Shown here: one piece after another, positions 1,468-63,440 of the stretch | Numbering within the stretch: the stretch's first letter is position 1 | Layout of the letters: every line of letters begins with the position of its first letter | Assembly (NCBI RefSeq): GCF_018413645.1 | Contig: NZ_JAHCDA010000003.1 | Location: 62,001 to 126,000, forward strand | Direction: 5' to 3' | DNA length: 64,000 nucleotides | Source of the DNA: Roseococcus pinisoli | GTDB lineage: Bacteria > Pseudomonadota > Alphaproteobacteria > Acetobacterales > Acetobacteraceae | Made by a program: the position numbers and the translations under genes | Notes under the pieces: generated by a model | What the model saw: only the letters and a program-made list of their open reading frames with translations | Database searches by the model: none | Told to the model about the DNA's origin: nothing

Positions 1468-1483
1468 GTGCACCCAGGTGCAC
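1468..1483. promoter_or_regulatory. 16-bp palindrome (perfect copy), putative operator
   Basis: GTGCACCCAGGTGCAC, 27 bases upstream of the start codon at 1440. Confidence 0.7.
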
Positions 1484-1487
1484 AGTC

Positions 1488-1733
1488 TTAATTTCCTTGC
1501 CGTGACCTCAGCCAGGCCCGGCCAATGTCTGTCAGACCCCATCCTGATGCGGTCGTCCGACTGGCGACCAGAGGGCCGCGCCAAGCCACCAGGCCATCGA
1601 CGGCCAGGTCGTTGAGAAGGCTCAGCTCGGTCGGATCGTCCGTGCGGAACAGTTCGGCTGCGGCCGCAAGTCGGGTGAGCATCGGGCGGATCTCCCCCTC
1701 AGTTCGTAGGAAGTCGTCATTCGCGGGCTTCAC
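1488..1733 (-). CDS. Hypothetical protein, possibly winged-helix (81 aa)
   Basis: Starts with GTG at 1733, which overlaps the stop codon of the HD-domain gene (GTGA joint), so translation is probably coupled. The protein starts VKPANDDFLR, then has a helical stretch (LTRLAAAAELF), a second helix (TELSLLNDLAVDGLVAWRG) and a C-terminal segment GWGLTDIGRAWLRSR that resembles the wing end of winged-helix proteins. Assignment as DNA-binding is weak. Last gene of the cluster before the palindrome at 1468. Confidence 0.6.
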   Translation of the reverse strand: MKPANDDFLRTEGEIRPMLTRLAAAAELFRTDDPTELSLLNDLAVDGLVAWRGPLVASRTTASGWGLTDIGRAWLRSRQGN

Positions 1734-2365
1734 GCGAGTTCCTTCGAAATATTCTCTCGGGCCTTTTGCTCCCACTGACGAACTCGGGCCATGTCGGTTC
1801 GGAAAATGCAGTCAGCCGCCAAGAAGGTCCCCAGAAACGCCTTGCGGCCGGCATTGAACTTCTCCGGTGACAAGTGGCTGTACTCCTCCCGCAGACGCTC
1901 CGTGTTGCGGTCGAAATAGGGGCTGGCAAGCGGCTCGAGGTCGAGGTCGAGGAACCAGGAGCCCCATCGGTTCATCATGGGCCGGACGGTTCGCATTCCG
2001 ACGCCGATGTGATCTGCCGAAGCGAGGATCGCAGCCGTGATGTGCTGCGTCTGCTGGTGCGTGAGGCCGAGGTTCGGGGCCGCCCGGAGGAACACGCCGG
2101 TCGACTGCTCCTCGTTCTGCTTCTTCGGTGCCTGCGGGTCGTAGACGATATCGTGATAGGCGATCAGGAGCGCCATCTCGAGGTCGCCGTCGCCCTGGAA
2201 GACCTCCCGGTGCAGGCGCCACATGCGGCCGAGATGCTCCTTGCCATGATACGGCGTGCCGGGTCGGCCCATAGCCGTTCTTACCGTACCTCTGCAGTCC
2301 TCCGGCAGCGCGAGCAGCAGGTCCTCGTATCCGGCTAGGTCGTCCTGGTTGATGTCTTCGGTCAT
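1730..2365 (-). CDS. HD-domain phosphohydrolase
   Basis: A 211-residue protein of the HD superfamily, metal-dependent phosphohydrolases that usually act on nucleotides or phosphoesters. The visible metal ligands are H40 and H44 in YHGKEHL and the H71-D72 pair in YHDIVYDP, followed by QNEEQST, as in the subgroup of soluble HD proteins with an HDIVY signature. Downstream 'ADHIGVG' and 'ADCIFRTD' could supply the remaining ligands. The start at 2365 overlaps the stop of the preceding gene by four bases (ATGA). In this nucleotide-processing neighbourhood (MazG-like and SLOG genes further upstream) a role in nucleotide metabolism is plausible; the substrate cannot be told. Confidence 0.75.
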   Translation of the reverse strand: MTEDINQDDLAGYEDLLLALPEDCRGTVRTAMGRPGTPYHGKEHLGRMWRLHREVFQGDGDLEMALLIAYHDIVYDPQAPKKQNEEQSTGVFLRAAPNLGLTHQQTQHITAAILASADHIGVGMRTVRPMMNRWGSWFLDLDLEPLASPYFDRNTERLREEYSHLSPEKFNAGRKAFLGTFLAADCIFRTDMARVRQWEQKARENISKELA

Positions 2366-2679
2366 GTCGTAAACCCCCTGGTGGCCAGGCTGATGGCATC
2401 GAGCGCGTTTCGATTGCGCTCGGCCTCGGTCAGCGTGCCGGACTGGTAGCCGTGGACGAATTCCTTGAGCGCGTCGAGCAGGTGGAGGGACGCGGCCATT
2501 ATCCGCTGATCGGCGTGGGCCATCTCAGCTTCACCCTTCACGCGGTCGGTGTAGGGGATGTAGGCGATCGCGCCCGTGGGGCAGGTCACCTGCAGCATCT
2601 TCTCGGCCTTCAGCAGGAACTCGCCGTTGATGCGGACGCCGCTGGACTGCCAGGGACCTGGCGAATGGACGGTCTTCAT
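2362..2679 (-). CDS. Conserved phage protein of the 'PGPW' type (105 aa)
   Basis: Begins MKTVHSPGPWQSSGVRING, and later has ADQRIMAASLHLLDALKEF. This combination (a PGPW motif near the start and a helical 'ADxRxxAAxxxLLxALxE' segment near the end) is a pattern I recall from many small phage proteins of unknown function in proteobacterial phages. The start overlaps the upstream stop (ATGA). No enzymatic motif is visible. Confidence 0.7.
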   Translation of the reverse strand: MKTVHSPGPWQSSGVRINGEFLLKAEKMLQVTCPTGAIAYIPYTDRVKGEAEMAHADQRIMAASLHLLDALKEFVHGYQSGTLTEAERNRNALDAISLATRGFTT

Positions 2680-3008
2680 GACGCAGCCTCCTCCTTCAGC
2701 AGGACGGCCTTCGCAGCGGCCCCGAGGAGCTTCTTGGCTTCGCTAAGGGCATCGGCTGGAGGCCTGAGCGTGTCTTTGACGAAGTAGGCTCTCGGGGTGC
2801 CCGGCAAACCGCTGTGCTTCCAGCCTGGGTAAGAGCGGCCCATGACCTCGCGGTTAGGCGTCTCCCAGGAACTGAATGCCGGATTCACAACGCTCGGGTG
2901 CACGTTCATCGGGCCGACCGTCGAGTAGAACTCCTCCTTGGACACCGACCGCATACCGGGCACGCTGTCGGGGATGGGCGGGACGCCCGGGTAGATCACC
3001 GGAGTCAT
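2676..3008 (-). CDS. Hypothetical protein (110 aa)
   Basis: Begins MTPVIYPGVPPIPDSVPG and is proline-rich at the start, ending in a helical lysine/alanine-rich tail (SEAKKLLGAAAKAVLLKEE). The ATG at 3008 overlaps the TGA of the gene upstream, so it is coupled. No membrane segment or recognised domain. Confidence 0.65.
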   Translation of the reverse strand: MTPVIYPGVPPIPDSVPGMRSVSKEEFYSTVGPMNVHPSVVNPAFSSWETPNREVMGRSYPGWKHSGLPGTPRAYFVKDTLRPPADALSEAKKLLGAAAKAVLLKEEAAS

Positions 3009-3591: not shown

Positions 3592-3594
3592 CTG

Positions 3595-3612
3595 AAACCC
3601 CTCCTTGGGTTT
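3595..3612 (-). promoter_or_regulatory. SD-in-loop hairpin for the gene starting at 3591
   Basis: Minus strand: AAACCC-AAGGAG-GGGTTT, six perfect pairs, three bases before the ATG. Confidence 0.55.
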
Positions 3613-3636
3613 GGCTGATGGCTACTTCGATACCCT

Positions 3637-3652
3637 GTGCACCTGGGTGCAC
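3637..3652. promoter_or_regulatory. 16-bp palindrome (perfect copy), putative operator
   Basis: GTGCACCTGGGTGCAC, 45 bases upstream of the start at 3591. Confidence 0.7.
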
Positions 3653-3682
3653 AAGAGGAAAATCACTTAGCGCGGGGAAAAT

Positions 3683-4125: not shown

Positions 4126-4130
4126 TGTCG

Positions 4131-4615: not shown

Positions 4616-4643
4616 TCAACGTTCTCCCGATGACCTGCCGGGC

Positions 4644-5270: not shown

Positions 5271-5274
5271 GGAG

Positions 5275-6728: not shown

Positions 6729-6730
6729 GT

Positions 6731-6744
6731 GACCCTCCTTGGTC
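6731..6744 (-). promoter_or_regulatory. SD-in-loop hairpin for the excisionase-like gene
   Basis: Minus strand: GACC-AAGGAG-GGTC, four perfect pairs, two bases before the ATG at 6728. Confidence 0.5.
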
Positions 6745-6758
6745 GCGCTTGGGGCTGG

Positions 6759-8105
6759 CTAAAGCTTGTCTTTCCAGAAGCCATCGTCCTTGAGCAGGCT
6801 CTTCACGGCTTCGTTGAAATCATCCAACAGAGGTGTGCTCACCTCCTCCGTCGCGTTGTCATAGCCGTTTGCAGGGTCGGCAAACGAGAAGATCGCCTTC
6901 ATCGGCTTACTGCCTCCTGGTCCGGCCACGATGTCGCCGTTCGACTTCATGGCGAAGCTTGGCTTCTCAACGGGCACGTAGTCGTCGTAGATCGAGGGCA
7001 GCGGCTCCATCTTCGGAACCCACCAAGGCTCCTTGTCGGCCTCGGTCATCGGCTCGGCTTCGTAGGCCTGATGTGCAAGCCCGTGCATGTCCATGGCCAA
7101 GGCCTGCTGCGGATCGGCCATCAGCGCCACGCGGGCGGCGTACTTCGCGCCCTCCTTTTGGCCATGCGAGACGCTCGCATGCATTCCTTGTTGGTACGGC
7201 AGATTGCACACCACGCCGATCTTCAGGGAGCGGCTGTCGATCAAATTATCGAGCGCCTTCAGGATCAATTTGCAGCGGGGCTTCTCCATACCCTTGCCGA
7301 TCTTCATCGCCAGATAGACGTCCTGGGCATAAAGGGCTGGCACATCGACGATGATCGGCAGGTCGGCCGAGATTGGCTTGGCGTGTGTGACTTTCCTCAA
7401 GGCCTCAACGATGCTCAGCACAAGGGCTTCGACCGGCCCATTGAAGTGGCCCCCGAGCATGATACCCGTCCCGACCTTGTGATTTCCATTCCGCGTCCAA
7501 TGCCAGGAGGCTGAGGCTCGGTGTGTGGCCTCGCTCCAGAACGACGCGACGAAGAGCTTCTCCACGGCACCGTCGTGGGGCAGGTGCTCGACGAGCTGCA
7601 TGTTTCGGACCGTCGCGGGGACCTGGCCGCCGCTGTACAGCATACCCATGGTCGCGGTCTTACTCAGATTGTGCGGTAGGCCGAAGCCGTAGTGCTCAAC
7701 CGGCTCGTCGTTGATGTACATGCCCGGGTCCAACATCGCGGCGATAGTCTTTTTGCCAGGCCACACTTTCTTGCCGGCGACGTTGGGGTTCGCCGCAACC
7801 GCGTTCGCCGCGATATCGCTGGTCGCAATCTCACCGTGGTCGACGAGCGTGTGCTTAGGCTCCTTGAACCAGGTGTCTGCGATCTCCTGGTTCAAAGTGG
7901 TGATGGTCTCTTCGTGGTCCGTCAGATAGCCGCCGTCGGTGGTCACGATCTTCGTGCCGAACTCGGGCGAGAGCACCTTCACGTGCGGGAAGACGAGGCG
8001 GACCCAATCGAGAAGAGCTTCCGGGGTCATCGTGACGGGCTTGTTGTTCCACAGGTTTGGAACTCCCTCCGGAAGCTGTGCACCCGGGTGCAGACGGATC
8101 ACCAT
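6759..8105 (-). CDS. Large hypothetical protein, possible divergent RNase H-like core (448 aa)
   Basis: No family recognised with confidence. The ATG at 8105 overlaps the stop of the RNase H-like gene (TAATG). Codons 5-10 are the palindrome at 8078-8093, read as LHPGAQ, followed by an SD-like GGAGGG inside the frame, so the N-terminal 25 residues may be translated regulatory DNA; the next ATG (TPEALLDW after it) has no good ribosome site. In the middle, SASWHWTRNG, PVEALVLSIVEAL, PIIVDVPALYAQD and HASVSHGQKEGAKYAARVAL follow in an order loosely like an RNase H-type fold. The protein has no membrane segment. Confidence 0.65.
   Translation of the reverse strand: MVIRLHPGAQLPEGVPNLWNNKPVTMTPEALLDWVRLVFPHVKVLSPEFGTKIVTTDGGYLTDHEETITTLNQEIADTWFKEPKHTLVDHGEIATSDIAANAVAANPNVAGKKVWPGKKTIAAMLDPGMYINDEPVEHYGFGLPHNLSKTATMGMLYSGGQVPATVRNMQLVEHLPHDGAVEKLFVASFWSEATHRASASWHWTRNGNHKVGTGIMLGGHFNGPVEALVLSIVEALRKVTHAKPISADLPIIVDVPALYAQDVYLAMKIGKGMEKPRCKLILKALDNLIDSRSLKIGVVCNLPYQQGMHASVSHGQKEGAKYAARVALMADPQQALAMDMHGLAHQAYEAEPMTEADKEPWWVPKMEPLPSIYDDYVPVEKPSFAMKSNGDIVAGPGGSKPMKAIFSFADPANGYDNATEEVSTPLLDDFNEAVKSLLKDDGFWKDKL
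8078..8093. promoter_or_regulatory. 16-bp palindrome (one mismatch) inside a start region
   Basis: GTGCACCCGGGTGCAG. It is translated in frame as LHPGAQ near the start of the 448-residue protein that begins at 8105. Confidence 0.6.
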
Positions 8106-8620
8106 TACGCAGCGCCCTTCAGCTCGTGCCGGCGGAGGCGCATCTGGAAGCGGGCTTCTTGGTCGAGCATGTCGTGCACCCAGGTGCGCGGCGTGTCGGT
8201 GCCGCTGTGCGCCTTGATGTGCCGAAAGGTGACGCGCGCGCCGGTGTGTGTGGAGACGCTACAGAACCTCTCCCATACCATCAGGGCGTCGGCGCCGCTG
8301 GCCGGCTTCGGCTTGTCGCGTAGCAGGCTGATCGCCGACAGACAGTCGGTTTGGACCAGCACCTGAGCACCCTGGGCATCGGCGCGGTGCAGTCCATTCA
8401 CGATCGCGGCGGCTTCGGCGATGTACGACTTGGCGAAGGGGGTGTTGAAGAAACCGGAGGCTTTGCCGGACTTCGCACTCGACTTCCACCAGATGGCCCA
8501 CCCGCCCGCGTTGGTCGTCGGGCACCAAGAGGCGTCACAGATCAACGTGATTAGAGGTGGCCGGATATCGGCCTTTACACGATGCTCGGCCAGCTTGGCC
8601 TGAGCAATCTTGATAGTCAT
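8105..8620 (-). CDS. RNase HI-like protein
   Basis: A 171-residue RNase H-fold protein. The expected metal-binding residues occur in order: D29 in LICDASW, E69 in SYIAEAAA, D92 in LVQTDC and D150 or D153 in WVHDMLDQEAR, preceded by HIKAHSG. GGWAIWW after the first aspartate is the second strand. RNase HI cleaves RNA in RNA-DNA hybrids, for example primers. The start at 8620 has an SD hairpin leader; the stop overlaps the ATG of the next gene. GTGCACCCAGGTGCGC at 8174-8189 resembles the palindrome but lies in the conserved WVHD codons and is probably chance. Confidence 0.85.
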   Translation of the reverse strand: MTIKIAQAKLAEHRVKADIRPPLITLICDASWCPTTNAGGWAIWWKSSAKSGKASGFFNTPFAKSYIAEAAAIVNGLHRADAQGAQVLVQTDCLSAISLLRDKPKPASGADALMVWERFCSVSTHTGARVTFRHIKAHSGTDTPRTWVHDMLDQEARFQMRLRRHELKGAA

Positions 8621-8625
8621 GCAGC

Positions 8626-8639
8626 GACCCTCCTTGGCC
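8626..8639 (-). promoter_or_regulatory. SD-in-loop hairpin for the RNase H-like gene
   Basis: Minus strand: GGCC-AAGGAG-GGTC with one G-U pair, five bases before the ATG at 8620. Confidence 0.5.
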
Positions 8640-8650
8640 ACGAACAGCTT

Positions 8651-9028
8651 CTACTTCGTAGTCGTGGGCGCAGTTTCTGTCACGGGGTTTTCTTCTTCTA
8701 ATATCGCCGCTTCGACTTCTTCATTCGACGCCTCGGGCGAAATGATCCTTCCCGTGTCCATGTCCTGCACCACCAGGCGATAACCGAGCGCGCCGAGAGC
8801 TGCTTCGACAGGAGCGAGCAGCGCTGTGCTGTGACCTTGCCAGCGATGCAGGGTCTTTCGTTCCAGACCAGACGCCCGCGCGACCTCGGATAGGGAAACC
8901 CGTTTGGCGTTGGCAGCAGTGAAAACAAACCGAACCAGGGGCGAGCCAAGAGTCGGCTGGCGGATACGACGGCGCCAAGGAACGATCTTGGGGCGCGGCC
9001 GGCGGCCATCAGTGCTGTGTCCCGACAT
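8651..9028 (-). CDS. Helix-turn-helix regulator, XRE-like (125 aa)
   Basis: Begins MSGHSTDGRRPRPKIVPWRR with a strongly basic first 25 residues, then ANAKRVSLSEVARASGLERK and TLHRWQGH, which reads as helices 1-4 of an XRE/Cro-type HTH with the recognition helix around ERKTLHRW. The acidic C-terminal tail (about residues 90-125) ends TETAPTTTK. It is a candidate repressor for the repeated palindrome, together with the RHH protein at 4442. It overlaps the end of the upstream gene by 20 bp, and GGAAG lies close before the ATG. Which operator it binds is unknown. Confidence 0.7.
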   Translation of the reverse strand: MSGHSTDGRRPRPKIVPWRRRIRQPTLGSPLVRFVFTAANAKRVSLSEVARASGLERKTLHRWQGHSTALLAPVEAALGALGYRLVVQDMDTGRIISPEASNEEVEAAILEEENPVTETAPTTTK

Positions 9029-9392
9029 GGTCTTCCAGCACCCCTTCTTCCGGATCTTCTGCGTCACCGCCGTCGGTGAAGCGCTCATACGAGCCGTCCC
9101 TCTCGGCGAACTCCTCCGTGGACATCGCGCCCAGGTCGATCACCAGATCAGCGGCCACGCACAGTTCGGCCAAACCCTGCAGCGTCATGTGCTGTCCCAT
9201 CGAACCTTCCAGCAGGCCCAGCATGGCGACCCGAACTTCGATCTCGGGCACCTGCAGGGTCACCGCCATGCTCCCGAACGACTGACCGGTGCGCCTGAGC
9301 TGGTCCATCATCGACAAGCCGATGCGCATCGAGAGGTCCCTCGCAGCGAGGTTGATCTCTTCTTCCCTGGTGGGGATTTTTGCGGGAGGCAT
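9009..9392 (-). CDS. Small protein, possibly regulatory (127 aa)
   Basis: Begins MPPAKIPTREEEINLAARDL. The centre (VTLQVPEIEVRVAMLGLLEG and TLQGLAELCVAADLVIDLGA) is helical and has the spacing of an HTH followed by a dimerisation helix. The last 30 residues are very acidic. I recall similar short phage proteins called XRE-like, but no residue makes this certain. It is followed by the HTH gene at 9028 with a 20 bp overlap, so they may act together. AAGGA precedes the ATG at 9392. Confidence 0.55.
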   Translation of the reverse strand: MPPAKIPTREEEINLAARDLSMRIGLSMMDQLRRTGQSFGSMAVTLQVPEIEVRVAMLGLLEGSMGQHMTLQGLAELCVAADLVIDLGAMSTEEFAERDGSYERFTDGGDAEDPEEGVLEDHVGTQH

Positions 9393-11728: not shown

Positions 11729-11746
11729 AGCTCCCTCCTTGGAGCC
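11729..11746 (-). promoter_or_regulatory. SD-in-loop hairpin for the lipoprotein gene
   Basis: Minus strand: GGCTCC-AAGGAG-GGAGCT, five Watson-Crick pairs plus one G-U pair, four bases before the ATG at 11724. Confidence 0.5.
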
Positions 11747-12870: not shown

Positions 12871-12886
12871 AACCCCTCCTTGGGTT
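12871..12886 (-). promoter_or_regulatory. SD-in-loop hairpin for the gene starting at 12867
   Basis: Minus strand: AACCC-AAGGAG-GGGTT, five perfect pairs, three bases before the ATG. Confidence 0.5.
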
Positions 12887-13575: not shown

Positions 13576-14048
13576 GCGGGGTCAGGCCCTCCTTGGCCTT
13601 CAGCGTGCACCTGGGTGCACAAATTGCCGGTCGTCTTGCTGCGCTCGAGGTACTCGATTGCCTTAGCCAGGGTGTCTGTTCGATCCTTCGAGAGGCCAAT
13701 CATCAAATTGCACGGCTGACACAAGATGCCTCGAACACGCCCGTCTTGATGGTCGTGATCTACGTTCCACCCCTTGTTCCAGCCTGGATGTTCAGAATGG
13801 CAGATGGCACATCCATTCTGCTTTAGGAGCATCACCTCGATCTGCTCGATGGTGATCCCGTACTTTTTCATGACCGACCACGCCCGGTACTTCTCCTTGT
13901 GCCCGCTTTTGGCGCGTCGGGCTTTCTGCTTCGTCCTGTCGCTTAGCCTCATCCGTGCGGCCAAGCAGGGCTCACAGAACTTCCTTTTGCCTGCCGGCGA
14001 AGGAGGCCGAGCTCCTCCACACTCCCTGCATGGACCTGTGAAGAACAC
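13572..14048 (-). CDS. HNH endonuclease, endonuclease VII-like
   Basis: A 158-residue protein with GTG start at 14048 preceded by GGAGG. It carries paired cysteines C7-x2-C10 and C25-x2-C28 near the start, and the nuclease core C80-x2-C83, D97-H98-D99-H100 (VDHDH), then GRVRGILC and C110-x2-C113-N114, the signature of the recombination endonuclease VII family, which resolves branched DNA in T4 and also occurs as free-standing homing nucleases. The last codons run across the palindrome and the SD hairpin of the next gene (reading CTQVHAEGQGGPDPA), so the gene may have been inserted there, or its true end shifted. A homing role is possible. Confidence 0.85.
   Translation of the reverse strand: MFFTGPCRECGGARPPSPAGKRKFCEPCLAARMRLSDRTKQKARRAKSGHKEKYRAWSVMKKYGITIEQIEVMLLKQNGCAICHSEHPGWNKGWNVDHDHQDGRVRGILCQPCNLMIGLSKDRTDTLAKAIEYLERSKTTGNLCTQVHAEGQGGPDPA
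13584..13599 (-). promoter_or_regulatory. SD-in-loop hairpin for the gene starting at 13575
   Basis: Minus strand: AGGCC-AAGGAG-GGCCT, five perfect pairs, eight bases before the ATG. Lies inside the coding end of the HNH gene. Confidence 0.5.
13605..13620. promoter_or_regulatory. 16-bp palindrome (perfect copy), putative operator
   Basis: GTGCACCTGGGTGCAC, 29 bases upstream of the start at 13575 and within the last codons of the HNH gene. Confidence 0.7.
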
Positions 14049-15815: not shown

Positions 15816-15831
15816 AACCCCTCCTTGGGTT
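15816..15831 (-). promoter_or_regulatory. SD-in-loop hairpin for the gene starting at 15814
   Basis: Minus strand: AACCC-AAGGAG-GGGTT, five perfect pairs, one base before the ATG. Confidence 0.5.
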
Positions 15832-16613: not shown

Positions 16614-16629
16614 CAACCCTCCTTGGTTG
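16614..16629 (-). promoter_or_regulatory. SD-in-loop hairpin for the methyltransferase gene
   Basis: Minus strand: CAACC-AAGGAG-GGTTG, five perfect pairs, two bases before the ATG at 16611, and directly adjoining the palindrome at 16630. Confidence 0.55.
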
Positions 16630-16645
16630 ATGCACCTGGGTGCAC
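16630..16645. promoter_or_regulatory. 16-bp palindrome (one mismatch), putative operator
   Basis: ATGCACCTGGGTGCAC, 18 bases upstream of the methyltransferase start at 16611. Confidence 0.65.
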
Positions 16646-18821: not shown

Positions 18822-19721
18822 TTAGCTGGGGAGCTCGACCGTCAGGCCGATGTCCGGGAACACCTTGTCGAAGGCCTCCAAGGTCTTCTCCCAGCCGAAC
18901 GTCTTCATGGTCTCGATGAAGCCGTCGGCAGTCACGGGGCCGGCCACGGGGGGCGGGGTCGGCTTCCCCAGGTACTCCAGGCAGATGAACTCGAAAGCAG
19001 CGCTCGGGCTCTCGCTGCCGGAGACCGACATCGCCTTCTCGATCGCGCTCTTCACGGTGCTGATCTGGTCTCCCTGCAGCTTGAACTTGACGTTGTCGGT
19101 GGGGGTGGGGTCCGACGGACCGCCGAGGGCCTTCTGGGCCTGGATCTGCTTCGCGAGCTCGTCCTTCGACATCGACTGGGCCTTCTCCAGCCAGTCGTCC
19201 ACGTTCTCGGCCGTCAGCAGGGGATTGTCCGGCATCAGCAGGATGCGCAGCTTCGTCCAGCCGAACGCCTTCACCTGGTCGGCGGAGAGGCCGGCGCTGA
19301 TCACGCCCGAATAGATGCCGATCAGGTAGTAGGCCTTGCGCTTGCGGAAATCGAAAGTCGCCTCGACGTAGGCGCCGAAGTCGTCGAAGCCCCACTCGGG
19401 GAACCAGTTGTTCTCGAGCACGCGCTTGAGCAGGCCGCCCTGCTCGAACTCGAGGAACCCGTCGTCTTCGGGAAGGGCGGACAGGCGCGCCTTCACCTGA
19501 TCTTGTGAGAGGGTTTCGACCTTCTTGACGATCTTCGCGATCGCGTCGCCCGGGATGATTTCGCCCTCGAGGGCCTTGGGCTTCTTGGTCTTGGGCTTCG
19601 TCAGCGTGACCGCCGTCGGGCCGGCTTCCTGCGTGGGGGTCTCACCGAGATGCTCATCGGCGGAAGCAGGAACCGGGAACGTGGTTCCCTGCATGAGCTC
19701 GAGGCTCGCGTCACCAGACAT
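18822..19721 (-). CDS. Hypothetical protein, possibly DNA-binding (299 aa)
   Basis: Begins MSGDASLELMQGTTFPVPAS. After a lysine/threonine/proline-rich linker (TLTKPKTKKPKALEGEIIPG) comes a helical region (WGFDDFGAYVEATFDFRKRK, AYYLIGIYSGVISAGLSADQ, VKAFGWTKLRILLMPDN) whose 'F-x-F-x-x-x-x-A-Y-x-L-I-x-I' arrangement resembles phage and plasmid proteins with a partition- or DUF3102-like HTH. The rest (about 200-299) is helical. GGAGGG precedes the ATG. It closes the recombination cluster. Function unknown. Confidence 0.6.
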   Translation of the reverse strand: MSGDASLELMQGTTFPVPASADEHLGETPTQEAGPTAVTLTKPKTKKPKALEGEIIPGDAIAKIVKKVETLSQDQVKARLSALPEDDGFLEFEQGGLLKRVLENNWFPEWGFDDFGAYVEATFDFRKRKAYYLIGIYSGVISAGLSADQVKAFGWTKLRILLMPDNPLLTAENVDDWLEKAQSMSKDELAKQIQAQKALGGPSDPTPTDNVKFKLQGDQISTVKSAIEKAMSVSGSESPSAAFEFICLEYLGKPTPPPVAGPVTADGFIETMKTFGWEKTLEAFDKVFPDIGLTVELPS

Positions 19722-19724: not shown

Positions 19725-20338
19725 TCAGCCCTCCATGGCCGTGGGATACAAACTCCTCTGTAGCTTGATTACTTCTGCTGACAAAGGGTTTTTTGCAATC
19801 GTTTGAACGACCTGCTTCTGGATAGAATTTTCAGTCGGAGTGAGTTCTAGGAGACACAGTCCGACCCTCCCCAGAACGTAGGCGTCGGCAATATCGTTTC
19901 CTGGGGAATCAAAACCCCAGCGTTTGTAGACGTCCTTCATCACCTCCTCCTTCTTCGCGTTTGCTTTTCCTGTGGCAAACTGCTTCAGAGAATTAGGAGA
20001 AACACTTAGGTACGGTACTCCGTACATAGCCATCGCGAGGCGCAGAACGCCTCCCACTTCGGCCAAGGTGGCTAGGGTGTTGACGTTCCCGTAGGCGTAG
20101 CCTTCGAGGATCACTAGACCCACAGCGTGCTTGGTTAGGAGCACCCTGAATGCCTCGTGAATTTCACGCAATCGCGCAGCGCCGTTTATTTTCGGTTGGA
20201 GGCGATACGTCGCCAGAAGCGATCCATTCCGGCTAAAAATCGTGATGCCGGTGCTGGTCGCTGATCCATCAAGACCCATAATGGATGTCGTCTGTGCACC
20301 CGGGTGCACAGAGATTTTCTTTTTGAAATGCACGGCCA
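19725..20338 (-). CDS. RuvC-like Holliday junction resolvase
   Basis: With the start at 20338 (TGATG overlap) the protein has 204 residues. D24 in IMGLDGSATSTG, E79 in VILEGYAYG and the C-terminal D in GNDIADAYVLG form the RuvC/RNase H-type active site that cuts four-way DNA junctions. Residues 10-16 (SVHPGAQ) are the in-frame translation of the palindrome at 20294-20309. A shorter start (ATG 20279, MGLDGS) would remove the first residues of the active-site strand and has no ribosome site, so I prefer the long start. Confidence 0.8.
20294..20309. promoter_or_regulatory. 16-bp palindrome (perfect copy) inside the RuvC-like gene start
   Basis: GTGCACCCGGGTGCAC, translated in frame as VHPGAQ near the N-terminus of the RuvC-like protein. 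Confidence 0.65.
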
Positions 20339-22653: not shown

Positions 22654-22669
22654 ACACCCTCCTTGGTGT
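22654..22669 (-). promoter_or_regulatory. SD-in-loop hairpin for the RecA-like gene
   Basis: Minus strand: ACACC-AAGGAG-GGTGT, five perfect pairs, one base before the ATG, adjoining the palindrome. Confidence 0.55.
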
Positions 22670-22685
22670 TTGCACCCGGGTGCAC
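22670..22685. promoter_or_regulatory. 16-bp palindrome (one mismatch), putative operator
   Basis: TTGCACCCGGGTGCAC, 17 bases upstream of the RecA-like start and directly adjoining its SD hairpin. Confidence 0.65.
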
Positions 22686-22688: not shown

Positions 22689-23045
22689 TCAGGTGGTCGG
22701 GGCCATGCTCGCTGCGAGCTCGGAGCTGACCGTCTCCATCCGGTCTTCGACCCACTTCTTCGCGAAATCGTAGACCTTGTTGATCTCACCGTGCCCGCAG
22801 GGCACCGACAGACTGACCTCGGCGCGGCCTGACGTGTACGGGGCAAGGGGGATGGTGCAGCCGAGCGTGAACCCCACAGTACAAGGCGGTTCCTTGAACA
22901 ACTTGGCGCCGCCCACGGGCTCGTCTTTGGTCGTAGTGGACCCGTCAGGATGCTTCACCTCAATCGAGGCCTTGGCTGCTGCCGAATGCAGGACGGCCTC
23001 TTCGTTGGGCTCGTCCGAGGTCTTGATTTTCTTCGTTATGGCCAT
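22689..23045 (-). CDS. Conserved phage protein near RecA (118 aa)
   Basis: Begins MAITKKIKTSDEPNEEAVLH. The C-terminal half (TVGFTLGCTIPLAPYTSGRA, EVSLSVPCGHGEI, DFAKKWVEDRM) alternates strands and ends in a helix; conserved-looking features are GCT-x-P and a cysteine in VPCGHGE. I recall related short proteins in phage replication modules without an assigned role. A GGACCC-AACGGAG-GGGTCC leader supports the start. Possibly an accessory factor for the helicase upstream or RecA downstream. Confidence 0.6.
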   Translation of the reverse strand: MAITKKIKTSDEPNEEAVLHSAAAKASIEVKHPDGSTTTKDEPVGGAKLFKEPPCTVGFTLGCTIPLAPYTSGRAEVSLSVPCGHGEINKVYDFAKKWVEDRMETVSSELAASMAPTT

Positions 23046-26869: not shown

Positions 26870-26885
26870 AGACCCTCCTTGGTCT
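26870..26885 (-). promoter_or_regulatory. SD-in-loop hairpin for the gene starting at 26865
   Basis: Minus strand: AGACC-AAGGAG-GGTCT, five perfect pairs, four bases before the ATG. Confidence 0.55.
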
Positions 26886-26938: not shown

Positions 26939-26954
26939 GTGCACCTGGGTGCAC
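26939..26954. promoter_or_regulatory. 16-bp palindrome (perfect copy), putative operator
   Basis: GTGCACCTGGGTGCAC, 73 bases upstream of the start at 26865. Confidence 0.7.
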
Positions 26955-29505: not shown

Positions 29506-30237
29506 GGCTTTAAGGCCCTCCTTGGCCATCTGAGCGAGCGCGTGCTGCGCACCCGGGTGCACGGCGCTATCGACCTGCATGGCCATAGCGGGCTTCGAGA
29601 TCACGATCGGGGCAGGAAAGGGGGGCTGGGGAGATTGGACAGGGGGGGAGCTTTGAGCGGTAGAGGACGCCTGGCTGACTTCCCCTGCTTCTGCCTTCGA
29701 CACGAACCCCGGAGGCAGGGCGCCGGGCGCCGCAGGCGGCTGGCCATCTTCCTTGCTGTAGTTTGGCTGTAGTTCAGGAACTAAGAAGAAAGAATCGGTG
29801 TCTGCCACACCTTCGATCGTGTGCTCCGCACCGATTTGATTTTGTGAATCGAGCTCAAAAATGGGTTTGCCTATGGCGATCCAGCCCTCGGTCCGGACCC
29901 GCTTGGACGGCCGAACGAAGGACAGGCATCGGTTATTCCAAAGCCCACGAGCCCGCTCGATCAGTCCTCTGGTCTCGAGCTCCCCGACCGCTTTTCGCCA
30001 CTCCCAGGCGGTGAAGTCGAGTTCCGTGAACCAGATCTTCGACGACCGTGCGATCCACGGCGTCGGATCTCCGGGGCGTAGGGCCTTCGCGCTCGGATAC
30101 CATGCAGCGATGCGGGCGAAGAGGAAGGCAGCATCCTTCGACAGGCCCATGGCCTGGATGCCCTGCTGAGGTAGCGGCGCCAGCTTCTTGGTGTAGGCCA
30201 AATTGTTGGCCTTCGACGTGGTCATCATTTCGTGCAT
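28825..30237 (-). CDS. Replication initiator-like protein with probable nested second product (470 aa)
   Basis: Start at 30237 preceded by GGAGGAG. The N-terminal 130 residues (LSKDAAFLFARIAAWYPSAK, IWFTELDFTAWEWRKAVGEL, RGLIERARGLWNNRCLSFVR) form a winged-helix pattern like phage replication organiser proteins. A proline/serine-rich linker follows. In the middle the frame runs through a palindrome (read VHPGAQ) and through an SD hairpin followed by ATG 29505, exactly the leader of a separate gene. Downstream is an alanine/lysine-rich helical region ending ALKAKKATDA. I infer one long protein and a shorter one (226 aa) from the internal start; the two halves may be a fusion of once separate genes. 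Confidence 0.7.
   Translation of the reverse strand: MHEMMTTSKANNLAYTKKLAPLPQQGIQAMGLSKDAAFLFARIAAWYPSAKALRPGDPTPWIARSSKIWFTELDFTAWEWRKAVGELETRGLIERARGLWNNRCLSFVRPSKRVRTEGWIAIGKPIFELDSQNQIGAEHTIEGVADTDSFFLVPELQPNYSKEDGQPPAAPGALPPGFVSKAEAGEVSQASSTAQSSPPVQSPQPPFPAPIVISKPAMAMQVDSAVHPGAQHALAQMAKEGLKAMATTTPPPKGSQPAQDEAKASGGGVAALAQGWKAQQLTKGPLAAVAAASGGKSPLASLEAVWRAGTPGFTAAWSPKTKTLMKRFIAHMPPKTDASAVMASCLADWPGFRAFAKENYEGWKLSEKPVADVMALQIDAAVNWFQAEAKREELKAAAAAKAAAAKMATSLKQLKPLAAPAAVTPKVVAEKHVPITPEEIEAAPHAFTSFGKKKTFDPFAALKAKKATDA
29514..29527 (-). promoter_or_regulatory. SD-in-loop hairpin at the internal start 29505
   Basis: Minus strand: GGCC-AAGGAG-GGCC, four perfect pairs, eight bases before the ATG. 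Inside an open reading frame. Confidence 0.45.
29547..29562. promoter_or_regulatory. 16-bp palindrome (one mismatch) inside a reading frame
   Basis: GCGCACCCGGGTGCAC, 41 bases upstream of the internal start at 29505; read in frame as VHPGAQ. Confidence 0.6.
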
Positions 30238-31411: not shown

Positions 31412-31569
31412 TGGTGTTTTCCTTGACGCGCCTCCGTGCGCGAGCGACGCCCGGACACCCCGGACTGCTCTGTCCCTAACCGCCTAAATCGCTGTTTAGA
31501 AGAGACATTCCGACTTTGTTGCGCACCTGGGTGCACAGATCATCCAGTCACCCGGGGACGGCCAGGATT
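31412..31569 (-). promoter_or_regulatory. Leader region between the two kinase-like genes
   Basis: About 160 bp without a supported gene. It contains the palindrome at 31521-31536 (one mismatch) and then 109 bases of leader before the ATG at 31411. No SD-in-loop hairpin is present at this start. Confidence 0.4.
31521..31536. promoter_or_regulatory. 16-bp palindrome (one mismatch), putative operator
   Basis: GCGCACCTGGGTGCAC, 109 bases upstream of the start at 31411. Confidence 0.65.
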
Positions 31570-33587: not shown

Positions 33588-33603
33588 GTGCACCCAGGTG
33601 CAC
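33588..33603. promoter_or_regulatory. 16-bp palindrome (perfect copy), putative operator
   Basis: GTGCACCCAGGTGCAC, 101 bases upstream of the holin-like gene start at 33486. Confidence 0.7.
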
Positions 33604-45608: not shown

Positions 45609-45624
45609 GTGCACCTGGGTGCAC
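45609..45624. promoter_or_regulatory. 16-bp palindrome (perfect copy) between divergent genes
   Basis: GTGCACCTGGGTGCAC, 9 bases before the gpM-like start on the minus strand and 83 bases before the plus-strand gene at 45708. Confidence 0.7.
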
Positions 45625-50789: not shown

Positions 50790-50805
50790 GTGCACCTGGG
50801 TGCAC
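50790..50805. promoter_or_regulatory. 16-bp palindrome (perfect copy), putative operator
   Basis: GTGCACCTGGGTGCAC, 56 bases upstream of the start at 50733. Confidence 0.7.
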
Positions 50806-50809: not shown

Positions 50810-51328
50810 TCATCTGATCTGGTTGGCGGTCCGGCACATCGCTAGAAGCGCCAGCGTTTTGGCCGTAGGGCCGTCGCCCTGTGACCAGCCGAAGCGGGCC
50901 AAGAGCTCTCGTAACTCTTCACCTTCGCCCTCGCCGAGAGTGAAGGTGATCGAGGATCGGCATTCGCATCCCGCCTTTACCATCGACTGGTTGTGGACCT
51001 TCTCCTTCGAGGATCGAAGGGCCGATAGGATGTCCGCCTTTGGGACGGGCTTTCCGGTTCGGCGGGCCACCGCGCAGAGGGCCCGCGCTTTTACCCAACC
51101 GATGAGCGCCACGGACGCCTCAGATATCAGGCCGTCGTCGATCGCCCGGCTGATAGCGATGAAGTAGTAGGCGCGACGCCTGGTGAGACCGGACCGCCTG
51201 ATAGCTTCTTGGAGGACCGCTGTGTTCAGCAGCCGCAGGTAGCGACCAATCTCGACGTGATTCTCGGTTTCACCCCGCAGAAGAAGCCGCAGCTTTTTGG
51301 TCGCGGAGGGGACGGATATGGCGGTCAT
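50810..51328 (-). CDS. Helical protein resembling DUF3102-type DNA-binding proteins (172 aa)
   Basis: Starts at ATG 51328 by ATGA overlap: MTAISVPSATKKLRLLLRGE, NHVEIGRYLRLLNTAVLQEA, SGLTRRRAYYFIAISRAIDD. The 'E-I-G-R-Y-L' helix followed by an HTH-like 'LTRRRAYYFIAI' resembles DUF3102 and partition-like proteins. The C-terminal third has EEREL-type helices and a cysteine pair (GCECRSS). It sits oddly inside the tail operon and could be a regulator. Not certain. Confidence 0.5.
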   Translation of the reverse strand: MTAISVPSATKKLRLLLRGETENHVEIGRYLRLLNTAVLQEAIRRSGLTRRRAYYFIAISRAIDDGLISEASVALIGWVKARALCAVARRTGKPVPKADILSALRSSKEKVHNQSMVKAGCECRSSITFTLGEGEGEELRELLARFGWSQGDGPTAKTLALLAMCRTANQIR

Positions 51329-52425: not shown

Positions 52426-52429
52426 GCTG

Positions 52430-52443
52430 CGCCCTCCTTGGCG
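52430..52443 (-). promoter_or_regulatory. SD-in-loop hairpin for the tail chaperone gene
   Basis: Minus strand: CGCC-AAGGAG-GGCG, four perfect pairs, four bases before the ATG at 52425. Confidence 0.5.
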
Positions 52444-52455
52444 ACTGTTGTTCAA

Positions 52456-54724: not shown

Positions 54725-54740
54725 GTGCACCCGGGTGCAC
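54725..54740. promoter_or_regulatory. 16-bp palindrome (perfect copy), putative operator
   Basis: GTGCACCCGGGTGCAC, 63 bases upstream of the start at 54661. Confidence 0.7.
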
Positions 54741-55240: not shown

Positions 55241-55242
55241 GC

Positions 55243-57026: not shown

Positions 57027-58010
57027 TCAGCCGTTGACTTCGACGCCGTAGCCGTAGGCGGTCGCGTCGAGCTCCTCGATCTGGACCGCCACACGGCAGG
57101 TCACGACCATGATGTAGACGCGCTCGGAGATGTTCTTGTCGAACTCCATCGACACCTTCCGCTGGATGCCGAAGATCAGGTTCTGCGGGTTGGTCAGCAG
57201 CACCTTCGGGTCGGGCATCATGTGGACGGCCTCCACGGGGACGCCGTAGGCCGGAACGGGCGAGGAGCCCGTCAGCGTGGCGTCACCCAGCGCCGTGCCA
57301 CGGTTGGCCAGGCTGTCGCGCCACATCGTCTCGGCGTTCACCGAGGTGAAGTAGCGCATCAGCGGCAGGTTCCGCAGATACGGGATCGGGAGCTGCATCT
57401 TGATGTTGCGGAACAGCTCCTTCGTCACGCCGGCGCCAGCGTGATCGTAGATGTGGCCACCCGGGCCGGCCGCGTTCTTCAGGTAGCCGTCGAAGAGCGT
57501 CATGTAGGCTTGGTCGTCGGCGTCTGCCGACGTGTAGGACGTGCTGGAGAGGAGGGCGAGCTCTTCCAGATCAGTCGCGGTGCGCTCGGCGATCATCGAG
57601 AGCAGCGTGTCCTGCAGACCGCCGCGCGAGGCCGCGTTGACCGGATCGTTGGTCGCGGAGGTGGCGCGCTCGATGTTGTCCTCGAGCACGTCGTAGGGCA
57701 GCCGGACCTCGGCGATGACCTCCTTCGTGTTCAGCTCGATCTGGCTGGTCGTCGCCTTGGCACGCTGGGCCTGCGTCAGGGCGACGCTGGATTGTGCCGC
57801 GCGCAGGATGCGCGTGCCGAAGCCGATCTTGTTGATCTTGCGGCTGGGCGAGAGCATCTCGACCACGCGCGCCTGGCGCAGGATCGTCGGCTCCTTGATC
57901 AGCTTCCGGATGAAGGAGTTGCCCTGCTCGGGGAGCAGGGTGCCGCCGTTGGAGGCGAGGTCCGCGATGGCCATGTCGGCCTTACGCAGCAGTTCCTGAT
58001 TGCTCGGCAT
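57027..58010 (-). CDS. Major capsid protein
   Basis: A 327-residue capsid protein: MPSNQELLRKADMAIADLAS, PTILRQARVVEMLSPSRKIN, VRLPYDVLEDNIERATSATN, PLMRYFTSVNAETMWRDSLA and AYGVPVEAVHMMPDPKVLLT. The layout (N-terminal arm, then an E-loop-like 'K-I-N-K-I-G-F-G' strand, then the spine helix) fits the HK97 fold. It comes straight after the protease and scaffold genes. AAGAAGGAC precedes the ATG. Confidence 0.85.
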   Translation of the reverse strand: MPSNQELLRKADMAIADLASNGGTLLPEQGNSFIRKLIKEPTILRQARVVEMLSPSRKINKIGFGTRILRAAQSSVALTQAQRAKATTSQIELNTKEVIAEVRLPYDVLEDNIERATSATNDPVNAASRGGLQDTLLSMIAERTATDLEELALLSSTSYTSADADDQAYMTLFDGYLKNAAGPGGHIYDHAGAGVTKELFRNIKMQLPIPYLRNLPLMRYFTSVNAETMWRDSLANRGTALGDATLTGSSPVPAYGVPVEAVHMMPDPKVLLTNPQNLIFGIQRKVSMEFDKNISERVYIMVVTCRVAVQIEELDATAYGYGVEVNG

Positions 58011-58031
58011 GATGTGCGAAGTCCTTCTTGG

Positions 58032-59409: not shown

Positions 59410-59433
59410 GCGGGGAAAATGACGAGATTTTCC

Positions 59434-59449
59434 GTGCACCCGGGTGCAC
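59434..59449. promoter_or_regulatory. 16-bp palindrome (perfect copy), putative operator
   Basis: GTGCACCCGGGTGCAC, 24 bases upstream of the protease start at 59409. Confidence 0.7.
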
Positions 59450-59478
59450 AAATCTGAGCCGGTAGTGGATGTGAGCCG

Positions 59479-61563: not shown

Positions 61564-61565
61564 GA

Positions 61566-63413
61566 TCAGGCTTCTCCTGCTGTGCGCATTGCAGCGATGG
61601 TGCAGCCGGCAAGGAGGCTGGTGCCCTCCGGGTCGATGGACGGGTCCATGTACTGGCGCACGGCCAGGGCCGCCCGGAGCTTCGCCTTATTGCCCTCGGA
61701 CAGGCTTTCGGCGGCAGTAATGGTCTTGGTGAGCCCGACATAATCTCGTCGTCGGAGCCCAATCATCACCTCGTCGGCGAGGCCCAGCACGCCTATCGGC
61801 GTGTCGTGCTTTGAGACGGGCTTCGGCTGAAGGCCACTGCTTTCAGGGGCCACTGCCAATCTTGGGTTGCCGGGCGGGGAGCTGTTCTGAGCTTCGTCTG
61901 TGGCATCGCCACTCACCTCGAGGGTTTGAGGTGGCGGCGGTTCAGGAGCCGCAACCACGGTGAGGTTGAGGGCCGCGATCTCATTGACGTTCGTCACTAC
62001 TTCGGCGAGGTCGACGCGCTGTGTGGCCATGGCGAGCTGGAGGCCGGCCATCTTGGTCGCAGTGTCCACCACGGCCATGGGCTTTGAGCGGAAGACGCAG
62101 CACTTCACGTTGAGGCGGGGGAGCACCCGTCGAGTGATGACGTTGTCGAACTCGTCCCGTTCAGGCCGGAAAACCTGGCTCTCGGCGAGCAGAACGGCGG
62201 CATAGGCAGTGGCGAAGGACACGCCTTCGTAGTCACCCGTGAACATTCCAGACAGACGGAACGAGCGCCGGATCTTTTTCTCGCAGGCGACGTCGTAGCT
62301 CTGGAACATGCCGTCCTTCTGTTGGTCGGCGCCAAAACGTTCGACCTTGATGTCGACGCCGCTGGCCTTGTCCAGCGAGCCGCCGGCGGACTGCACTTCC
62401 ACGATAGCGGCACGGTGTTGGCCGCCTTGCTTCGGCGCGAACTTCTGCTCAAGAGCGGCCCGAGTTTCCTCAGTCGCGATGCCGCCTCCAACGATCAGGA
62501 GGATCGGGGGCATGCCGCCGCTGTCGAAGAACTCGAGGTTGTGCTCCTCGGCCCGGCGCTGACCGATCACCGACGGGATCTGACCCTCCCAACGGGGCAC
62601 GCCATAGGGCGACCCTGCATCCGGGTTCAGTTTGAAATGGAGGATCTCCGTCGCGCGCTTATCGAGCGGTACGGGGGCCTCGGCCGTCTCCCACATACCG
62701 GTTTCACAGTTGAGGTGCCGGGTGGCGCCGAACTCACGGAAATAGAGTAGCTTCCCAGCGACAATCTGGGCGAAGCGCCGCTCCCGTATGTAGGTGCTCA
62801 TCGTTACTTCGACGCCGTTGCGCTCGATTTTAACAGGCGCCAGAACGGGGGCATCTAGCCGCAGCAGGCGGATGTTGCGCGATGGCGCATGGCGCATGAA
62901 CACCAGCTCGCCCTTCACGTTGGACAAGCACTCCATGTAGCCGTTGCCGGTGTTCTCTAGGTCGCGGCGGACCTTCTTGCGGAGAGAGAGGAAGGACTCT
63001 CCCGGCCATGTCTCTTCGAAGAAGCTCTTCGCCCGTTGAATGTGGCCCTGATGTTCAGCGGCCTCCTCTTTGTCGGGGTCAGCCCCGCCGACTGAACCGT
63101 CGGTTTCCTTCTCGCCGTCATCACCCTTCTCGAACTCAATGACGTGACCAGTCCCGTCGACGTTGGTCTCCATTGAATCAATGCACGGCCCGAGAGAGGG
63201 GTTCGCCTGCACCAGGCGCTCCAAGGTCGTGGGTGGGTAGGGTGGGGCAAGCAGCGAGAGGCTTGCCCCTGTGGGTGTTCCTTCCCCGGAATAGAACTCT
63301 CGGAATTCGTCCTCGACCTCGAGGGCACGGGGAGTGATCGCAGACGTCGACCCACTGGCTGCGCCAACGAGGGTGACCTTCAGTTTGCTCTCGTCGACAG
63401 ACGCTTCGGCCAC
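61566..63413 (-). CDS. Portal protein (PBSX/SPP1-type)
   Basis: A 615-residue portal. The preferred start is GTG 63413, preceded by AGGAG and the palindrome at 63425-63440 eleven bases further up; the longer frame reads through the palindrome (HPGAQ). LVQANPSLGPCIDSMETNVD, RKKVRRDLENTGNGYMECLS, HFKLNPDAGSPYGVPRWEGQ, NLEFFDSGGMPPILLIVGGG and EKKIRRSFRLSGMFTGDYEG are portal features (clip and stem regions, then the RRSFRL wing). It forms the dodecameric DNA entry channel. It heads the capsid gene series here; the gene upstream is the DNA polymerase, and no terminase gene is visible. Confidence 0.9.
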   Translation of the reverse strand: MAEASVDESKLKVTLVGAASGSTSAITPRALEVEDEFREFYSGEGTPTGASLSLLAPPYPPTTLERLVQANPSLGPCIDSMETNVDGTGHVIEFEKGDDGEKETDGSVGGADPDKEEAAEHQGHIQRAKSFFEETWPGESFLSLRKKVRRDLENTGNGYMECLSNVKGELVFMRHAPSRNIRLLRLDAPVLAPVKIERNGVEVTMSTYIRERRFAQIVAGKLLYFREFGATRHLNCETGMWETAEAPVPLDKRATEILHFKLNPDAGSPYGVPRWEGQIPSVIGQRRAEEHNLEFFDSGGMPPILLIVGGGIATEETRAALEQKFAPKQGGQHRAAIVEVQSAGGSLDKASGVDIKVERFGADQQKDGMFQSYDVACEKKIRRSFRLSGMFTGDYEGVSFATAYAAVLLAESQVFRPERDEFDNVITRRVLPRLNVKCCVFRSKPMAVVDTATKMAGLQLAMATQRVDLAEVVTNVNEIAALNLTVVAAPEPPPPQTLEVSGDATDEAQNSSPPGNPRLAVAPESSGLQPKPVSKHDTPIGVLGLADEVMIGLRRRDYVGLTKTITAAESLSEGNKAKLRAALAVRQYMDPSIDPEGTSLLAGCTIAAMRTAGEA

Positions 63414-63424
63414 GGGGTTCTCCT

Positions 63425-63440
63425 GTGCACCCGGGTGCAC
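63425..63440. promoter_or_regulatory. 16-bp palindrome (perfect copy), putative operator
   Basis: GTGCACCCGGGTGCAC, 11 bases upstream of the portal GTG start, close to its ribosome site (AGGAGA). Confidence 0.7.

Follow-up and report, generated by a model that had tools for sequence, protein, structure and literature searches.

The closest described systems are repeated elements of mycobacteriophages, which are cited here from the available text of the papers concerned. Corndog (Cluster O) carries 34 copies of a 17-bp dyad, TGTTCGGNNNCCGAACA, with a variable centre; many are intergenic, about a third lie in genes, most are not linked to promoters, and the authors, to whom the function is unknown, favour sites of a dimeric protein (PMC4351075). 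The stoperators of cluster A are asymmetric and oriented (PMC4351075) and are bound by a known repressor, which terminates elongation (PMC9283540). In Cluster K, the start-associated sequence (SAS) is a fixed 13-mer, GGGATAGGAGCCC, 3-7 nt before start codons; the extended start-associated sequences (ESAS), 17-bp imperfect inverted repeats with a spacer, lie upstream of about half of the SAS, have a consensus that differs between subclusters and are read by the authors as DNA sites (PMC3203893), and a 2025 paper still asks for experimental verification of the SAS/ESAS role (PMC12699233). Here we analyse a stretch of 64,000 nt of Roseococcus pinisoli, which we call the window (positions 62001-126000 of contig NZ_JAHCDA010000003.1, C6 below), lying entirely within a 98-kb prophage. 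The element in question is a 16-nt palindrome, GTGCACCYRGGTGCAC, present in 23 copies in the prophage, 15 exact and 8 with one mismatch; its counterparts in related phages largely keep their places and change their letters. We consider it probable that a dimeric protein encoded by the phage uses these palindromes as dispersed operators and that the two co-evolve.

Dispersed phage palindromes are a known kind of element; what is new is the concerted change of spelling at conserved positions, together with the promoter link. The sequence-only reading of the window had called such a symmetric repeat unfamiliar, which was too strong, as Cluster O phages carry more than 30 copies of the perfect dyad TGTTCGGNNNCCGAACA (PMC4351075). 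In both cases there are many perfect inverted repeats, often intergenic, that are read as sites of a dimeric protein. The Cluster O dyad has 7-bp TGTTCGG arms and a 3-nt spacer, whereas the prophage palindrome has 7-bp GTGCACC arms around a 2-nt centre; Cluster O is one cluster with one spelling, whereas in this proteobacterial family the core varies by lineage at kept positions; and promoter proximity is family-wide here, whereas Cluster O sites are mostly not promoter-linked (PMC4351075). Cluster A stoperators are likewise dispersed across the phage genome, but they are asymmetric and oriented, whereas the prophage sites are palindromic and occur in both centre orientations. Motifs of a Nostoc phage were rejected as a parallel, being asymmetric in the available description (PMC4916379). 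Among the papers listed by our literature search, which covered open-licence papers, none reports the sites described here. The C1 operators of P1 and the centromeres of N15 are a further likeness, as dispersed control sites across a large temperate phage genome; P1 C1 sites are asymmetric, N15 has few sites, and we know of no concerted spelling change at fixed places in either.

We call the region a prophage because it is bordered by a 67-bp exact repeat (C6:55816-55882 and C6:154011-154077) holding the 3' part of tRNA-Ser(GCT), because its G+C content is lower between the repeats than outside, and because it carries phage genes, including those for a tape-measure protein, a lambda J-like fibre, a portal, an integrase and a DnaB-like helicase. 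Nearly all genes lie on the minus strand. Gene calls came from our own script, and some called starts are wrong. The window holds 17 palindromes, 11 exact and 6 with one mismatch, listed here in window coordinates (Shine-Dalgarno (SD) hairpins are described further below):

1468..1483, unstranded: exact palindrome (GTGCACCCAGGTGCAC), 4 nt past the upstream stop and 27 nt ahead of the called start
3637..3652, unstranded: exact palindrome, followed by the SD hairpin at 3596-3611
8078..8093, unstranded: palindrome with one mismatch, at the start of a called gene
8174..8189, unstranded: palindrome with one mismatch, within an RNase H-like gene
13605..13620, unstranded: exact palindrome
16630..16645, unstranded: palindrome with one mismatch, abutted by the SD hairpin 16614..16629
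20294..20309, unstranded: exact palindrome, upstream of a RuvC-like gene, which the gene of the universal protein follows
22670..22685, unstranded: palindrome with one mismatch, 17 nt ahead of a RecA-like gene and abutted by the SD hairpin 22654..22669
26939..26954, unstranded: exact palindrome, after the DnaB-like gene
29547..29562, unstranded: palindrome with one mismatch, ahead of an SD hairpin and a probable true start near 29505
31521..31536, unstranded: palindrome with one mismatch
33588..33603, unstranded: exact palindrome
45609..45624, unstranded: exact palindrome, sharing 6 nt with a called start whose position is probably too far upstream
50790..50805, unstranded: exact palindrome
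54725..54740, unstranded: exact palindrome
59434..59449, unstranded: exact palindrome, 24 nt ahead of the capsid maturation protease gene, where 13 of 16 genomes have a site
63425..63440, unstranded: exact palindrome, at the start of the portal gene

All 16 start coordinates from the sequence-only reading are correct, and so are its eleven perfect copies; its five one-mismatch copies are in fact six, 8174 (GTGCACCCAGGTGCGC) having been overlooked, and the scan of the whole phage with one mismatch bears out the observation on a larger scale, at 23 copies. Allowing up to three mismatches gave 19 matches in the window against a shuffle mean of 1.22, and none of 100 shuffles reached 19. A scan of the 12 contigs (4.79 Mb) of the genome places every one of the 15 exact copies of GTGCACCNNGGTGCAC within C6:58286-153046, together with eight of the nine one-mismatch copies; the ninth, which has a GC centre, is at C5:381740. 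None of the 15 two-mismatch matches falls inside that interval, and a reversed control pattern has 11 genome matches at up to two mismatches. The exact palindrome occurs in none of 99 other genomes scanned from the same genus, family or class. An exact-motif scan of IMG/VR returned 14 stretches on 13 contigs, with at most two exact copies per contig; one of these, the 41.9-kb viral contig IMGVR_UViG_2708742465_000002 (L013, L017; L and G numbers are our handles), has two, one of them about 30 nt before an ATG. Among the 23 prophage copies, read in gene orientation, the flanking bases tend to prolong the dyad: the preceding base is C or T in all 23 and the following base is A or G in 21.

By our gene calls, 12 of the 15 exact sites are fully intergenic, compared with 10.4% of random positions (p about 5e-10), and so are 16 of all 23 copies. 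The exact exceptions are 45609 and 63425, which overlap called starts that are probably too far upstream, and a third at window coordinate 69528, outside the window, in the 3' end of a called gene. That nearly all copies lie upstream of cluster-heading genes, as first proposed, is thus fair for the exact copies, but the one-mismatch copies 8078, 8174 and 77871 are within called genes; 29547 is probably ahead of a mis-called start. The proposed distance of 9 to 109 bases before start codons fits 14 of the 23 sites (17-109 nt ahead of a called start), while the others are farther away or overlap one. Nine of the 23 begin 2-7 nt past the called stop of the gene before them. Just 14 of 57 intergenic gaps of at least 40 nt carry a site, so only some gene borders are marked in this way. 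The intergenic bias recurs in Agrobacterium phage JP1, where 22 of 33 sites are intergenic with respect to the deposited plus-strand genes, against 6.4% expected (p 6e-19); this count left out the minus-strand gene JP1_010, which contains no site.

With the capsid protein (57027-58010) as query, we found 198 phage records, 5 loci in GTDB genomes and 131 in IMG/VR. Among the 30 matches listed of the 198 phage records are Rhodobacter phage RcZahn, Rhizobium phages RHph_TM16 (TM16 below) and Y1_11, Stenotrophomonas phages DLP_5, DLP_3 (DLP5 and DLP3 below) and Summit, Agrobacterium phage JP1 and Vibrio siphophages of about 80 kb. Gene order and many proteins are common to the prophage, RcZahn and TM16. 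Palindromes are unmentioned in the main text of the RcZahn paper (PMC8601537), as are repeats in the available text of the DLP5 announcement (PMC5834331) and operators or promoters in that of the DLP3 paper (PMC7326821). Our main comparison used 16 whole or nearly whole genomes, namely the prophage and 15 relatives; for G114, G123, G124, G125, RcZahn and TM16 the analysis covered the first 100 kb, and coding strands were set by the length of open reading frames (ORFs), in agreement with all homologue matches of prophage proteins. A dispersed 14-bp palindrome is present in 16 of 16 genomes, and in 15 of them it has the frame TGCA-N6-TGCA, within which the prophage core is CCYRGG. De novo k-mer and dyad counts gave TGCAATYRATTGCA for RcZahn, GTGCAACATATTGCAC for TM16 and TGCAATTAATTGCA for a Hyphomicrobium locus. 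The frame occurs 6-64 times in 15 genomes, against a mean over five Markov sequences of 0.6-3.8; the smallest excesses are in G124 (10 against 2.0) and G125 (6 against 1.4), both mostly with half-degenerate forms. G122 has only 3 frame copies and carries an alternative palindrome, TGAWCTYRAGWTCA, in 36 copies, where 10 Markov sequences all had none. For G124, G125 and G122 we relaxed the site patterns with their k-mers already in view. In the best 80 of the 131 IMG/VR loci, at least one frame copy is present in 69, with 0.03-0.32 expected per locus, and five further named isolates all have it, in 6-37 copies against 0-1 for the reversed pattern.

In several genomes one core predominates: ATTAAT in 25 of 30 sites in G117 and 26 of 28 in G118, GACATC in 26 of 27 in G114, ACTAGT in 14 of 15 in G113, and ATCAAT in 47 of 52 in G115 and 26 of 38 in DLP5. 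Of 35 frame matches in JP1, 33 read TGCAAAYRTTTGCA; Summit has TGCAATCAATTGCA, in either orientation, in 26 of 37. In TM16 the core ACATAT accounts for 8 of 17, and core usage is less uniform in RcZahn, G116, G119 and G123. The uniform cores given here have a pyrimidine-purine middle step, which TM16 and G120 lack.

These different spellings largely share their places. Under genome-specific site definitions, 13 of 16 genomes, G122 included, have a site between -220 and +60 relative to the start of the capsid protease, compared with 7 of 16 for the portal, 9 of 16 for the universal protein introduced below and 123 of 753 over all compared starts. The protease was the best of 49 families with at least five members each, and its binomial tail of 2e-8 is small enough to withstand that selection. 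JP1 likewise has a site ending 16 nt ahead of the serine protease. The sequence-only reading had named absence of the sites from equivalent starts in relatives as a finding that would tell against it; they are present at equivalent places, and it is the letters that differ. Kept places with changed cores imply that the sites are old and that their letters were turned over together, and because the cores are lineage-specific and the positions largely kept, operator letters and regulator must have changed together.

The family also shows promoter proximity. We defined a strict sigma-70 promoter by TTG at -35, TA...T at -10, a spacer of 16-18 and a minimum of 8 consensus matches out of 12. On the gene strand, 69 such promoters lie no more than 200 nt from one of 473 sites; 32 of them begin 0-19 nt downstream of the site, well above chance expectation, and 10 more begin in the 20 nt before a site; on the opposite strand the 0-19 nt bin holds 2 of 19. 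Four of the 32 pairs come from G122, with its different spelling, and therefore support the equivalence of that spelling. The promoter linkage is a property of the family and holds for a minority of sites.

In our proposal, a dimeric protein encoded by the phage would bind across the entire prophage, mostly in intergenic positions and often just past stop codons. It most likely sets the expression of gene blocks, because part of the family's sites adjoin -35 boxes on their upstream side. At promoter-linked sites the protein would act on the promoters, and at the remaining sites it may hinder elongation. We infer a single dimeric binder, phage-encoded and regulating transcription, and likewise the sign of its effect. 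Dispersed operators are the best supported reading, and the sequence-only interpretation is in this respect borne out in part.

Which protein would bind? A tree of six concatenated proteins, midpoint rooted, splits the 16 genomes into two sides. On one side, nine genomes including the prophage (C6:153054-153413) have an Xre protein of about 100 amino acids (aa); on the other, six have a MerR-like protein, and G122 has neither. Because both sides carry sites, neither protein is the single ancestral binder. As universal binder, Xre was rejected. Nine of the 16 genomes have a homologue, a six-frame search of JP1 gave none (best 4.9 bits), and G113, with the core ACTAGT, and the L036 phage, with mostly ATTAAT, share the identical recognition helix VNRSTLRR. 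Xre is possible as a binder within its own clade, where the prophage has both a diverged helix and a diverged core. Operators of Xre-type repressors can be 14-bp and 434-like. G113 has a site at the called start of Xre, and TM16 has one at the start of the acetyltransferase gene ahead of Xre; G117, G120 and G123 have one or two sites 435-801 nt before Xre, and RcZahn, G118, G125 and the prophage have none that close upstream. The acetyltransferase gene is immediately ahead of Xre in both RcZahn (92316-93071) and TM16 (69103-69865). The MerR-like protein (DLP5 gp059) was set aside, being found in six genomes of the other clade, with a weak match in TM16 (E 0.003) and none in JP1. The E-values for the universal, Xre and MerR-like homologues come from small databases.

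Other candidates were also rejected. PF02195 (ParB_N) was not found in G114, G116, G124 or RcZahn, all of which carry sites; RcZahn has a homologue of the prophage's ParB-like protein, G114, G116 and G124 gave none, and a single-protein scan with the prophage protein returned no match. No genome or record among the 16 exceeds the PF04606 cut-off for an Ogr/Delta activator, RcZahn gp96, annotated as Ogr/Delta-like, matching below it; the sites of Ogr/Delta late activators are TGT-N12-ACA. The RcZahn gp51-type helix-turn-helix (HTH) protein is conserved, but, with its start taken at the SD hairpin, the prophage copy would be without the N-terminal part. Gene 22689-23045, beside RecA, resembled a DLP5 'transcriptional regulator' by position and aligns with the neighbouring gene instead. 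The HTH ORF 8651-9088, one of the two binders suggested by the sequence-only reading, has a sub-threshold Pfam match only.

The best unassigned candidate, among families present in all 16 genomes, is the protein encoded at 18822-19721, which we regard as an unproven lead. It and a probable paralogue are as follows:

18822..19721, minus strand: universal protein, 299 aa, candidate DNA-binding partner, with a homologue in 16 of 16 genomes and in JP1
50810..51328, minus strand: probable paralogue of the universal protein, shorter, near the tape-measure gene; iterated profiles from both retrieve the same matches

The JP1 homologue scores 67.5 bits. A site ends within 120 nt upstream of the gene in 8 of 16 genomes and in JP1; the patterns of G124 and G125 differed between our two placement counts, giving 9 of 16 in one and 8 of 16 in the other, because under its differing relaxed patterns G124 was counted with a site before this gene in the first count and without one in the second. 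The prophage copy of the gene has its closest upstream site at a distance of 573 nt, ahead of the RuvC-like gene that precedes it. Below threshold, the protein matches the replication/partitioning family NF033725 (E 0.012 for the prophage protein, scoring 16 bits where the cut-off is 60; seen in 3 of 20 members) and an LmbU-type regulator; in one member of the family, a lysine-rich stretch resembles histone-H1-like models (E about 1e-5), short of the Pfam cut-off. The predicted structure is all helical, with a mean predicted local distance difference test score of 76 (pLDDT) and a predicted template modelling score of 0.50 (pTM). Against the PDB no significant relative was found (Foldseek best E 0.87, sequence profile best E 0.13). 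A profile of the family has four matches of E 0.001 or better in a viral library, all to uncharacterised or unnamed phage proteins, and shows no similarity to the prophage's ParB-like protein.

Several observations weigh against the operator reading. Our search for the binder led to no identification: Xre, MerR-like and ParB-like proteins are not universal. The 32 site-promoter pairs stand against 473 sites and 10 of them come from G119, while the prophage, TM16, DLP5, G124 and G125, that is 5 of 16 genomes, contribute none; none of the 23 prophage sites is followed by a strict promoter, the prophage gene strand having only three. Several sites are 15-29 nt before a start codon, which leaves no room for an intervening promoter. 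Eleven of the 33 JP1 sites touch annotated genes, and intragenic sites also occur in DLP5 and G115. The centre is CA rather than TG on the gene strand by 74:35 over four genomes (8:2, 32:15, 18:8 and 16:10; p 2e-4), and by 9:0 in JP1; this bias tells against a perfectly symmetric role, though both orientations occur. Finally, RcZahn has sites, yet its authors, in the available text, found no evidence of lysogeny (PMC8601537).

A rival reading is that of stoperators, that is, a prophage repressor at each site that blocks elongating RNA polymerase and silences the lysogen as in cluster A, to which we give a minor, if appreciable, chance. The sites lie between co-directional genes, often directly past a stop codon, and partly within genes, most have no recognisable promoter, and the centre orientation is biased 2:1; our phage is an integrated prophage, and DLP5 is described as temperate (PMC5834331). 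Against this, the sites are symmetric with both centre orientations, whereas cluster A sites are asymmetric and oriented (PMC4351075), their family-wide clustering upstream of -35 boxes points to initiation, and RcZahn, described as virulent, has them too. Partition or nucleoid sites seem unlikely to us: here the palindromes would be centromere-like, serving plasmid-prophage partition or a DNA-organising protein, with gene control secondary. N15 has dispersed centromere-like sites, many members of our family carry a ParB-like protein, and the weak NF033725 and histone-H1-like matches of the universal family point the same way, as does the phagemid replication of DLP5 in the lysogen (PMC5834331). 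However, the prophage is integrated and has an integrase, the ParB_N-lacking G114, G116 and G124 have sites, the NF033725 match is far below its cut-off and Foldseek found no significant solved relative for the protein, and intergenic placement with promoter proximity is unexpected for centromeres.

The sequence-only reading had also suggested that each RNA copy could form a hairpin. Such 6-bp messenger RNA hairpins, which would process, stabilise or terminate transcripts, could account for positions between stop and start codons and for the CA bias on the gene strand. RNA pairing predicts an excess of G-U over A-C among pairs deviating from Watson-Crick, and over the 16 genomes the gene strand has 70 G-U and 105 A-C pairs (p 0.01), the reverse of that expectation; both centre orientations occur as well. 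There is thus no sign of RNA pairing, the suggestion is unsupported and we consider RNA elements highly improbable. We give just as little credence to linkers kept by homologous recombination between modules, or signals of a phage recombinase. The sites do lie at gene borders, and the phage has RecA-like, RuvC-like and Cas4-type homologues; but in several genomes all or nearly all sites carry a single core, which differs from that of relatives at homologous positions, and recombination needs neither dyad symmetry nor promoter proximity. Dispersed operators of a phage-encoded dimeric protein remain the reading we prefer.

A second repeat lies close to many palindromes. The commonest 10-mer on the gene strand, CCAAGGAGGG, has 32 copies in the prophage, 27 of them 4-11 nt ahead of a called start; about 106 kb of host flanks, read on both strands, contain 2. 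Its three outer flanking positions are Watson-Crick in 26, 31 and 25 of the 32 copies (10.2, 13.2 and 9.0 in shuffles); none of 2000 shuffles reached the observed counts, and several different pairs are used. Because the flanks pair, they can form a covarying stem whose 6-nt loop (AAGGAG) presents a perfect Shine-Dalgarno sequence. The same covariation is seen at two or three pairs in RcZahn, G117, G118 and G125, and the remaining eleven genomes have 0-3 copies of the core each. G122 (L180-L184) has, besides its own palindrome, a separate repeat with a Shine-Dalgarno core, TTAAGGAGTG, in 26 copies on both strands. Of the 32 hairpins in the prophage, 15 are in the window, all on the minus strand:

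130..145, minus strand: SD hairpin (CCAAGGAGGG with complementary flanks)
801..816, minus strand: SD hairpin
1445..1460, minus strand: SD hairpin
3596..3611, minus strand: SD hairpin
6730..6745, minus strand: SD hairpin
8625..8640, minus strand: SD hairpin
11730..11745, minus strand: SD hairpin
12871..12886, minus strand: SD hairpin
13584..13599, minus strand: SD hairpin
15816..15831, minus strand: SD hairpin
16614..16629, minus strand: SD hairpin, abutting the palindrome at 16630
22654..22669, minus strand: SD hairpin, abutting the palindrome at 22670
26870..26885, minus strand: SD hairpin
29513..29528, minus strand: SD hairpin
52429..52444, minus strand: SD hairpin

As far as Cluster K is described in the available text, the likeness is that two layers are linked, a Shine-Dalgarno element at gene starts and, upstream of it, an inverted repeat; 12 of the 23 palindromes have an SD hairpin within 120 nt downstream. 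The SD hairpin shares the placement trait of the SAS, with a Shine-Dalgarno core, complementary flanks and a position shortly before the start. The SAS is the fixed 13-mer GGGATAGGAGCCC, whereas the outer stem around the CCAAGGAGGG core varies with compensation, and the ESAS are imperfect with a spacer, whereas the prophage palindrome is compact and spacer-free.

Two further observations concern neighbouring genes. Between the terminase and polymerase genes, at window coordinates 67502-68386, 69469-70131 and 70891-73011, lie homologues of the tyrosine phosphatases and pyruvate phosphate dikinase of RcZahn, each family being matched in 16 of 16 genomes. Near attR, inside the prophage, C6:152254-152487 (plus strand, opposite to nearly all prophage genes) encodes a 77-aa protein that we take to resemble the exonuclease VII small subunit.

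It is conceivable, as a tentative picture that we hold to be possible rather than probable, that this is a family of siphophages of about 80-100 kb in which each phage has one operator set, of about 15-60 sites in most genomes, with a lineage-specific "password". A fast-evolving binder, perhaps of the 18822-19721 family, and its sites would switch spelling together in place, giving mutually blind regulons, and part of the family would add a translational layer of covarying SD hairpins. This family bears on the question of how tens of operators can all alter their sequence while regulation is kept. About eight spellings, part of them at homologous positions, are found in cultured and uncultured phages, together with one candidate protein in every genome compared, which makes operator-regulator co-evolution and phage immunity grouping directly testable. 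The TGCA-N6-TGCA frame also provides a handle for grouping large proteobacterial siphophages.

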